Source of the DNA: Aureibaculum sp. 2308TA14-22
GTDB taxonomy: Bacteria; Bacteroidota; Bacteroidia; Flavobacteriales; Flavobacteriaceae
Reading direction: 5' to 3'
Assembly: GCF_040538665.1 (NCBI RefSeq)
Contig: NZ_JBEWXT010000001.1
Location: 1,452,501-1,516,500 of the forward strand
Length of the DNA: 64,000 nucleotides
In this document: piece after piece, positions 19,503 through 21,202 of the stretch
Position numbering within the stretch: the stretch's first letter is position 1
Layout of the letters: each line of letters opens with the position of its first letter
Program-made: the position numbers and the translations under genes
Notes under the pieces: generated by a model
What the model was told of the DNA's origin: nothing
Database searches by the model: none
What the model saw: only the letters and a program-made list of their open reading frames with translations

Positions 19503-20603
19503 TTAATTATCAAAAAGTTTAGTTAATGACTCTTTTGTTTTGAATACTTCACCCTTTTTATTAACAATGGTATTCGCGTTATAATCAGATAAATCTTCTG
19601 TTAGAATAATAGTAGGTTTAAAAATAATTTTATTTTTTTCGAGTATTTCTTTGAACAATACGCCAACGTCTATTATTTTATTTTCGTCCTGCAACACAAC
19701 ATTTTTGTAAATTATATCTAAATACCTTTTTTCATTATTAGGTATTTCAAAGTAAGATTCATAATTGGAATACTCTTTTTGATTCGCGATACAATGAACC
19801 CCACTAACTAAACTAATAAAATTGAATTTTCGGACTTCTTCTCTGTCGTAATCATCTTGATAATGACCAGCTTCAATAAGAATAGTATTGTGTCCCGCTT
19901 TTTGAAAATTATCGCCTGTAGCGGTTGGATAAAACTCATCAGTATATCTACCTATTTGATCGGGAATTAATTGTTTTAGTACTGAGTACATAGCACTAAT
20001 TACCGACATGGTGATCTTTCTCCCTTCAGTTACTTGTCGCGATTCTTCTTCTGATGGAGCTAAAAAAGAAATAGTAGCAGGCTTGTCTCCTATGTTAAAA
20101 ATCGTTCGCTGATCATGCAGATTAAAACAAAATTCAGGGTTAACTTCTTTTAAAACTTCATGCAATATGTTGCTTTCTGGAGCAATCCTATCTACCGCAT
20201 CACGGTTTAAATCAATATCCTGAGCATTTACACGAGTATAAGCTTCTGCACCATCAGGATTTAACATAGGTAAAAACACAATTGTACATTTTTCCAAAAT
20301 AGTTTTTGCAGTAAAGTCATCTTCATTTAACCATTTAAAAAAATCGAACAATGCTTTAGTTCCTGTACTCTCATTACCATGCATTTGTGACCAAAGTAAA
20401 ATTTTAGTTTGGCCATTTCCTGCAGTAATTTTATAAATAGGAATTCCCTTATAGGAATGACCAATAATTTCTTTGGAAAATTTAAGTGATAAATTTTTTA
20501 TAATTGGTTCAATAGTAGCAAATGTAATATACCTACCAAACAGCTTTTTTTCTTTATGGAAATTAGCCCAAGAAACTAATTTTTTTATTTCCTCATTATT
20601 CAT
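19503..20603 (-). CDS. M14-family zinc carboxypeptidase
   Basis: This 366-residue protein is an M14 metallocarboxypeptidase. Zinc ligands are His75 and Glu78 in QMHGNESTG and His163 in FNLHDQRT; the catalytic Glu is probably Glu243 in LIEAGHY. NPDGAEAYTR and DLNRD are the usual substrate-side motifs. No signal peptide is visible, so it is likely cytoplasmic, acting on peptides or amino-acid conjugates. Its start codon abuts a TTTACAAATGTAAA palindrome, and two more copies lie upstream, so its expression is probably tied to the divergent HTH gene. The palindrome read on this strand contains TACATTTG, a good -7 box. Confidence 0.88.
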   Translation of the reverse strand: MNNEEIKKLVSWANFHKEKKLFGRYITFATIEPIIKNLSLKFSKEIIGHSYKGIPIYKITAGNGQTKILLWSQMHGNESTGTKALFDFFKWLNEDDFTAKTILEKCTIVFLPMLNPDGAEAYTRVNAQDIDLNRDAVDRIAPESNILHEVLKEVNPEFCFNLHDQRTIFNIGDKPATISFLAPSEEESRQVTEGRKITMSVISAMYSVLKQLIPDQIGRYTDEFYPTATGDNFQKAGHNTILIEAGHYQDDYDREEVRKFNFISLVSGVHCIANQKEYSNYESYFEIPNNEKRYLDIIYKNVVLQDENKIIDVGVLFKEILEKNKIIFKPTIILTEDLSDYNANTIVNKKGEVFKTKESLTKLFDN

Positions 20604-20831
20604 TTTACAAATGTAAATAAAGAAATGTTTACAAATGTAAAATGTATTGATTGAATTTTAGAATTGTTTTTAAGTTAATTTTTACAAATGTAAAATGAAA
20701 AATATATATTACTTAAATTACTTGTAAATCAATATTTTAAATGTATTTATATTATTTTTTAATTTAATTGTATAAGTAATAAATGGTTATAATATGTTTG
20801 GTTTAATATTCAAATTGTTTACATTTGTTAC
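20604..20831. promoter_or_regulatory. Array of four operator-like palindromes between carboxypeptidase and HTH genes
   Basis: TTTACAAATGTAAA occurs exactly at 20604-20617, 20628-20641 and 20681-20694. A fourth copy in the other orientation, TTTACATTTGTTAC, is at 20818-20831 with two mismatches to the reverse complement. Each exact copy is a perfect palindrome with 6-bp arms and a 2-bp centre. The fourth overlaps the -7 box of the HTH gene and the first abuts the ATG of the carboxypeptidase gene. Binding by the HTH protein, with autorepression, is the simplest reading. Because the core contains TACATTTG, the copies could also serve as minus-strand -7 boxes. Confidence 0.75.
20797..20827 (+). 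promoter_or_regulatory. Bacteroidota promoter of the HTH regulator gene
   Basis: TTTG at 20797-20800 and TACATTTG at 20820-20827 are separated by 19 bp, an ideal match to the Bacteroidota TTTG/TAnnTTTG promoter. Transcription would start near 20833, leaving about 10 nt before the ATG at 20843. The -7 box lies inside the fourth palindrome. Confidence 0.75.
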
Positions 20832-20842
20832 TCAATAATTGC

Positions 20843-21202
20843 ATGTTGATTAACAACTTAGATTTTTCAAAACGTTTACAATTGGTAATGGACTATTATC
20901 AGCTTTCTGCCGCAGCTTTTGCAGACAGAATCGAAGTGCAGCGTTCTAGTATTTCCCATCTTTTATCTGGCAGAAATAAGCCCAGTTTGGATTTTGTACT
21001 AAAAGTATTGGATAATTTTAAAGAAGTCGAACTCTACTGGTTGTTAAATGGTAAAGGAGAGTTTCCAGCAAAAGATACTTTAAGCTCCTTTCCTACCAAA
21101 ACGAATACTGTTGGTTTGAAAAATAACAATCAGCAAAAAGAAATAGACAAGATTATTATTTTTTATAAAGACGGTACTTTTAGTGATTACAAACCCAATT
21201 AA
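20843..21202 (+). CDS. Small XRE/CI-like helix-turn-helix regulator
   Basis: This 119-residue protein has an N-terminal HTH of the XRE type: FSKRLQLVMDYYQLSAAAFA followed by DRIEVQRSSISHLLSGRNKP and a helix ending in ELYWLLNGKGEFP, the usual end of such domains in Bacteroidota. The C-terminal 40 residues are polar (TKTNTVGLKNNNQQKEIDK) with a short beta-like tail, perhaps for dimerisation. ATG at 20843 is preferred to TTG at 20825, because the latter lies in the promoter. It is divergent from the carboxypeptidase gene across an array of palindromes and probably regulates both. A strong terminator follows. Confidence 0.85.
   Translation: MLINNLDFSKRLQLVMDYYQLSAAAFADRIEVQRSSISHLLSGRNKPSLDFVLKVLDNFKEVELYWLLNGKGEFPAKDTLSSFPTKTNTVGLKNNNQQKEIDKIIIFYKDGTFSDYKPN

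Follow-up and report, generated by a model that had tools for sequence, protein, structure and literature searches.

Palindromic operators between divergent genes for an XRE-type regulator and an M14 peptidase in Flavobacteriaceae: spacing that points to a possible repression loop

Genes and Palindromes at the Locus

The window, a stretch of 64,000 nucleotides from the flavobacterium Aureibaculum sp. 2308TA14-22, carries two divergent genes separated by 239 bp. On the minus strand (19503..20603) lies the gene for an M14-family zinc carboxypeptidase-like protein of 366 aa, and on the plus strand (20843..21202) that for an XRE/Cro-C1-type helix-turn-helix (HTH) protein of 119 aa, which may start at ATG 20843 or TTG 20846. 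The palindrome TTTACAAATGTAAA is found between them in three exact copies, at 20604-20617 (O1), 20628-20641 (O2, 24 bp from O1) and 20681-20694 (O3, 53 bp from O2). A near copy, TTTACATTTGTTAC, lies at 20818-20831 (O4); it is imperfect in the window and agrees at 10/12 non-central bases. The four span 20604-20831, or 228 bp, and O1 abuts the M14 ATG (complement of 20601-20603). Both the copies and the contact with the carboxypeptidase start codon had been reported in a sequence-only reading of this DNA and were found as described. A weak operator-like match, TTTACAATTGGTAA (10/12), lies inside the HTH gene at 20875..20888 and was not seen there in the Aureibaculum-like relatives looked at.

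Chance is excluded as the source of the palindromes, because exact TTTACAnnTGTAAA occurs three times in the 239-bp intergenic region, compared to a mean of 0.0008 and a maximum of 1 in 5000 dinucleotide shuffles. In the 3.57 Mb genome, the three copies in the window are the only exact occurrences of TTTACAAATGTAAA; exact TTTACAnnTGTAAA occurs four times, the fourth within an ORF. With at most one mismatch, TTTACAnnTGTAAA is found at 76 places versus 48 for the reversed control pattern, which is more than the locus accounts for, and with at most two mismatches TTTACAAATGTAAA shows a modest excess (158 versus 123 for the control). A screen of 16 genomes gave 49 exact TTTACAnnTGTAAA sites, 18 at the locus and 31 elsewhere, versus 19 for the reversed control. 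Eight of these 31 were inspected: that of the window's genome and seven whose centre is AA or TT. Six are inside ORFs of at least 80 aa, and two lie beside different genes. At the level of exact sites no wider regulon was found in the 16 genomes; with eight of the 31 inspected, and with TTTACAnnTGTAAA also in excess at one mismatch in the window's genome, there may be a small one. The palindrome, searched as text, had no match in the open-access literature (most subscription papers lie outside that search), and no title or abstract related to the locus turned up when the open literature was queried on looping, on XRE autoregulation, on HU/IHF in Bacteroides and on the flavobacterial gene pair.

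The Two Proteins

The HTH protein scores above the cut-off for Pfam HTH_3 (PF01381; 28.3 bits, cut-off 23). Its structural model shows a Cro/C1-type fold of five helices, then a disordered linker and a C-terminal beta-hairpin, with the hairpin motif I-x-x-I-x-x-F-Y-x-D/N-G-x-F conserved in relatives (alignment A1). Many relatives across the order retain the hairpin (window 21143-21199), preceded by a linker that, judged by eye, varies from ~10 to ~100 residues. Foldseek places a restriction controller protein first, then other XRE domains, none at E<=0.001. The earlier description of the regulator as 'CI-like' holds for the HTH domain, which matches PHROGs transcription-regulation families that include phage repressors (best phrog_2328, E 4e-12), and fails for the rest of the protein. 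Phage_CI_repr (PF07022) is below its cut-off (18.0 bits versus 22); it matches 41 of 48 relatives at E<=0.01, and no C-terminal cleavable or oligomerisation peptidase domain is present among the Pfam matches of the protein or its relatives.

A resident prophage was considered as the source of the gene and rejected, since the HTH protein is present in 186 of 199 family genomes with the same M14 neighbour, and tblastn against 50,697 phage records returned a single partial match (31% identity over 73%). The HTH domain may nevertheless have come from a phage long ago, because it matches phage repressor profiles.

The divergent gene product matches Pfam PF00246 (Peptidase_M14) at 48.7 bits (cut-off 21.6). 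Its AlphaFold model (pLDDT 96.4) has carboxypeptidase folds on top among the PDB matches, and carries an extra C-terminal beta region on this fold. H75, E78, R124, N133-R134, H163 and E244 are invariant in 44 M14 sequences (alignment A2); presumably these are the zinc-ligand and catalytic places expected of the family. The score for the murein tripeptide amidase MpaA (NCBIfam NF007897) is 23.2 bits, below its cut-off of 157.

Conservation of the Operator Set

The HTH protein was used to search 199 genomes representing 198 Flavobacteriaceae genera, and the 186 genomes in which it is present mostly have one match each. Neighbourhoods were read for 130 loci, the better-scoring part of the 186 (30 brought by the search and 100 from its list). 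M14 is divergent to the HTH gene in 125/130. Three of the other five have little or no upstream sequence because of contig ends (L036, L074, L083); the remaining two, L049 and L136, have no M14 recognised beside the HTH gene and keep palindromes upstream of it. In a second set of 80 named loci, eight of them exact duplicates, M14 is divergent in 79, with a contig end in the other. The gene pair, whose mode of control the sequence-only reading had called unusual, is common in the family, and the HTH gene is a core chromosomal gene. Outside the order it is rare: a phylum-wide draw of 148 genomes gave 22 matches, of which 6 lie outside the order and are mostly weak.

The palindromes are conserved between orthologous gene pairs across the family, a point on which the same reading had said its proposal could fail. 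After exclusion of the contig-end loci L074 and L083 from site and distance counts, 128 HTH genes have, within 345 bp upstream, 274 sites of at least 11/12 and 105 perfect sites, where 20 shuffles gave means of 2.6 and 0.1. Read from the M14 side, the region holds O1, O2, O3, a conserved A/T block, O4 and a fifth site, O5. An O1-O2 pair at 24 bp is recognised in 99 of the 128 loci and unrecognised in 29. Where O3 matches at 10/12 or better (61 loci), it lies 34/35 bp from O2 in 46; the spacing is 53/54 bp in six Aureibaculum-like loci. The commonest distance from O4 to the HTH ATG in relatives is 41 bp. The window has a derived form of this layout, with O3 53 bp from O2, O4 starting 25 bp before the ATG, and O5 lost. 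Its closest relatives share the derived layout, with a degenerate O1 in A. marinum. By HTH protein, the closest named record is Aureibaculum marinum (75% identity), followed by A. luteum (68%), and two metagenome-assembled Flavobacteriaceae rank between them.

Overlap of Operators and Predicted Promoters

The flavobacterial -7 box has been described as TAnnTTTG and refined to TAHHTTTG (PMC6847099, PMC9723704), and the spacing from box to start site is 4 or 5 nt (PMC6847099). The sequence TACATTTG, found in O1 and O4 of the window, fits this consensus. Inside O1 it forms a predicted M14 -7 box at 20608..20615 on the minus strand, and inside O4 a predicted HTH -7 box at 20820..20827 on the plus strand. 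The HTH promoter had earlier been proposed as TTTG, 19 bp and TACATTTG; both elements are in place, the putative -33 TTTG at 20797..20800 (plus strand), which is weakly conserved in the O4-anchored profile, and the box within O4. With a spacing of 4 nt, the predicted M14 start site in the window is the A of the M14 ATG, and the M14 transcript is predicted to be leaderless in this genome. In relatives with the M14 ATG 13 bp beyond O1 (compare window 20601-20615), there is room for a leader of ~12-13 nt.

The palindrome contains a -7 box only if its two central bases suit the strand, and these bases were left unscored when sites were found. At O1 the centre is AA in 96/99 loci, giving TAnnTTTG towards M14 in 96/99. 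At O4 it is TT in 97/104, giving TAnnTTTG towards HTH in 94/104. The centre of O2 is free (AA 29, AT 34, TT 24, other 12; n=99 loci). The named set, counted after removal of the eight exact duplicates and of loci with less than 345 bp upstream, behaves the same way: a TAnnTTTG-type centre is present at O1 in 55/57 and at O4 in 62/66, while O2 has AA 9, AT 28, TT 16 and other 4 (n=57). The variable -7 positions are mostly CA, with exceptions above all at O1. O1 and O4, then, each hold a predicted -7 box pointing into their own gene, and O2 and O3 keep the palindrome alone. The suggestion that operator and promoter are the same sequence gains strong support from this comparison. At four loci (L010, L012, L017 and L027) the O1 palindrome has decayed and a TAnnTTTG box is still visible by eye.

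The Operator over the Start Codon

In most relatives the HTH start codon falls within O5, which reads TTTAC-AATG-RTAAAC. TTACA immediately precedes the HTH ATG in 103/128 loci. Codon choice was counted in 158 non-duplicate, mutually related loci with TTACA before the ATG. At codon 3, AAC is used 155 times and AAT once, versus 301:765 in the rest of the gene. For codon 2, ATA accounts for 86 of 92 isoleucines (24% elsewhere) and GTA for 58 of 61 valines (31% elsewhere). This synonymous bias opposes the view that O5 reflects start-codon context combined with protein constraint. Since AAC is favoured in A+T-rich genes, it argues that the DNA itself, and not the protein alone, is under selection at O5.

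Palindromes and the HTH Gene

Fourteen family genomes lack an HTH match (13 from the family search, and G243). Profile searches of these genomes gave one weak partial HTH match and detected M14 in 10/14. Eleven HTH-less M14 loci were read; the pair from G064 (L302 and L308), weaker matches without a site of at least 10, was left out, leaving nine loci from nine genomes. Among these, L298 is in a gene with an internal stop and L300 has less than 300 bp upstream. No site in the 450 bp upstream reaches 11/12 at any of the nine, compared to 120/125 of the HTH-containing loci that have one (115/125 within 100 bp; Fisher 7e-11, relatedness ignored). A palindrome of 10/12 is kept in 4/9 and TAnnTTTG near the M14 start in 6/9. 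A longer M14 relative (open frame of ~490-500 aa) is present in addition to the short one in five HTH-less genomes (L303-L307 in G050, G184, G152, G108 and G150).

The converse case is provided by 30 loci from other families in the order; in 26 of them a site of 11/12 or better lies close to the HTH gene. Twelve of the 30 have no M14 in the stretch read, and all but one of these retain a site of that strength (11/12 loci); the 12 include L254 and L261, from a family where others have M14 0.9-2 kb away, and L247, near a contig end. In sequence terms, the palindrome motif follows the HTH gene.

Small-genome relatives within the order, from the families designated f8 and f11 (L250, L253, L257, L268 and L273) have a gene, named by eye, for a dihydroorotate-dehydrogenase-like protein after the HTH homologue. 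Upstream of the homologue they carry two palindromes ~191-203 bp apart, with no M14 in the stretch.

Helical Phasing and the IHF-like Block

O1-O4 distances were measured in loci with recognisable O1, O2 and O4 (78/128 in the first set, 77 of them in the first tree; 147/196 in a larger set that overlaps the first and whose sites were chosen by -7 boxes). In the 78 loci they fall into separate groups with a period of ~10.7 bp. The resultant length is 0.83, a value reached by 0/5000 jittered sets, for a period drawn from the very data it describes. The 147 distances cluster at 214-216, 226-228, 234-239, 245-249, 256-261 and 278-282 bp, with single values of 267 and 315 outside. The outlier of 315 (L127) may come from a wrong O4, as another candidate at -53 would give 279; it was kept as 315 in all distance counts.

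Relatedness was controlled by the use of independent pairs on the protein tree, with the period and a 4-bp threshold both chosen after the 78-locus distances were seen. The first set has 38 such pairs, 16 of which differ by at least 4 bp: 9, 9, 9, 10, 10, 10, six times 11, 13, 21, 30 and 69 bp (p 5e-5 for random phase), and one of these, 69 bp, is far off the helical steps. The larger set has 72 pairs, 22 differing by at least 4 bp. Nineteen of the 22 lie no more than 2 bp from a multiple of 10.6 (random phase would give ~8) and three are off the steps; differences of 4 to 8 bp and of 13 to 18 bp do not occur.

The stretch that varies in 11-bp steps is the one between O3 and the conserved block; the block itself lies 83-86 bp upstream of O4 in 68/78 loci. 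The block has the core TCARNNNNTTR, which we take to be the core of the E. coli IHF consensus. This core is found 86-89 bp upstream of O4 (within 4 bp) in 58/104 loci, compared to a shuffle mean of 0.4, and is absent from that place in 46/104. The full 13-base consensus is found there in only 15/104 loci. Among 66 loci of the named set there are 30 core matches at the same place. The window carries the full form, AATCAATATTTTA, at 20727..20739 on the plus strand (consensus presumably WATCARNNNNTTR) as a candidate bend site. Its genome holds two HU/IHF-family genes, whose products may bind the block.

One mark of a repressor that acts through a loop is a pair of operator clusters with a helical phase constraint on the spacer between them, and this was found here; another would be a protein, tetrameric or larger, that bridges two operators. 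Helical steps of this kind would be expected of a loop, or of another fixed-face contact over ~200-250 bp. Together with the IHF-like site, at a fixed place in about half of the loci, they point to a repression loop.

Proposed Mechanism and Alternatives

Site conservation, overlap with predicted promoters, codon constraint, coupling to the HTH gene and helical quantisation are what the comparison of genomes provides; from these we infer the binding, repression, loop, HU/IHF role and signal of the following model. The HTH protein very probably represses both itself and M14 by promoter occlusion, because the operators overlap the -7 boxes and the palindromes stay with the HTH gene, strong ones being absent from the nine M14 loci without it. 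We consider it reasonably likely that this repression of both divergent promoters from the palindromes also involves a DNA loop, closed between the operator clusters with the help of an IHF-like bend. An HTH dimer would bind the palindromes (extended consensus TGTTTACAnnTGTAAACA) and cover the -7 boxes of both divergent promoters, O1 for M14 and O4 for its own gene. O2 and O3 would strengthen occupancy on the peptidase side, and O5, over the HTH start codon in most relatives, would obstruct the regulator's own gene at a second point. The O1-O3 cluster would contact the O4, O5 cluster via protein-protein interaction, perhaps through the conserved C-terminal hairpin, and this contact would close a loop of ~200-250 bp. 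A bend at the IHF-like site ~85 bp upstream of O4, to which an HU/IHF-family protein may bind, would help the loop to form, and a signal would open it and release both genes.

A broader version, toward which we lean only slightly, would make this a family-wide Bacteroidota loop. In it a small XRE protein would occupy both promoters and, in most relatives, the start codon of its own gene, an HU/IHF-family protein would supply the bend, and whole-turn insertions and deletions would preserve the loop.

The HTH protein could instead be a double autorepressor that works by occlusion and side-by-side cooperativity with no loop at all, the steps then reflecting phase of the peptidase promoter or operators relative to an activator or bend block upstream of the HTH promoter. 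This is rather unlikely, even if adjacent operators too have favoured spacings (24 and 34/35 bp) that are one turn apart, and the block is at a fixed distance from O4, so that the block rather than O4 could be the phased partner. Stacking between neighbours does not explain, however, why phase is kept in independent pairs over the long, little-conserved spacer between O3 and the block. Seven loci of f8 and f11, with no M14 in the stretch, also speak against it; each has a pair of sites at a distance of 191 or 201-203 bp, although in three loci the far site matches at only 10/12.

It is improbable that the HTH protein activates M14, with the palindromes near its own gene serving for negative feedback. 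O2 does lie just upstream of the M14 -7 box, where contact with RNA polymerase would be possible, but O1 is on the -7 box itself, a typical place for a repressor, and M14 is kept in 9/14 genomes without a full HTH match, 6/9 of them with the -7 box. Least probable is that another protein binds the palindromes and regulates both genes, with HTH a mere target: the core does resemble TACAnnTGTA, the operator motif of BlaI/MecI/CopY-type repressors, and exact sites are somewhat in excess away from the locus (31 versus 19 in the 16 genomes), but such a binder is rejected because the sites go with the HTH gene, being lost as strong palindromes from the M14 promoter in all nine HTH-less loci and persisting at HTH genes with no M14 in the stretch, while the inspected off-locus sites were mostly within ORFs (6/8) or beside unlike genes.

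Comparison with Known Systems

Loops between operators are formed by the E. coli gal repressosome (GalR with HU) and by the lac repressor. As in those systems, the operators here flank an intervening stretch of one to a few hundred bp, with helical phase dependence and a candidate site for a bend protein in the putative loop. In contrast to them, the predicted -7 boxes of both divergent genes would themselves serve as operators, the regulator (an XRE protein of 119 aa) has no relation to LacI/GalR, and evolution rather than a series of constructs supplies the phase rule.

In phage lambda, CI and Cro act at the repeated palindromes of OR and OL over divergent promoters. The present locus shares with it a Cro/C1-type HTH fold, palindromes ~24 bp apart over divergent promoters and a possible long-range loop. 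It differs in that there is no CI cleavage/oligomerisation domain, a single chromosomal regulator is present with no opposing Cro seen, and the partner is a peptidase. Controller proteins of restriction-modification systems are small autoregulators with operators over their own promoter. Two of them, C.AhdI and C.BclI, come near the top of the structural matches to the HTH domain (E 0.003 and above); here, in contrast, the neighbours are M14 and peptidase genes, and there is an extra conserved C-terminal hairpin. Compared to the standard flavobacterial promoters (PMC6847099, PMC9723704), the predicted -7 box here is embedded in an operator palindrome.

The locus is ordinary in being a conserved pair that is probably autoregulatory. 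What sets it apart is the triple use of the palindrome, which is unusual, and the helical quantisation; O1-O4 distances that step mostly by whole helical turns are new here.

Significance

Control of transcription is less well understood in the Bacteroidota than in E. coli. Present across a large family, the locus makes a compact model, with a regulator, an M14 peptidase and promoters that appear to double as operators. What the peptidase does can also be approached through the conserved pair. As a signature of looping, helical quantisation in natural sequences can be tested, and if the proposed mechanism is true, the phylogeny itself would record the looping rule through insertions and deletions of whole turns.
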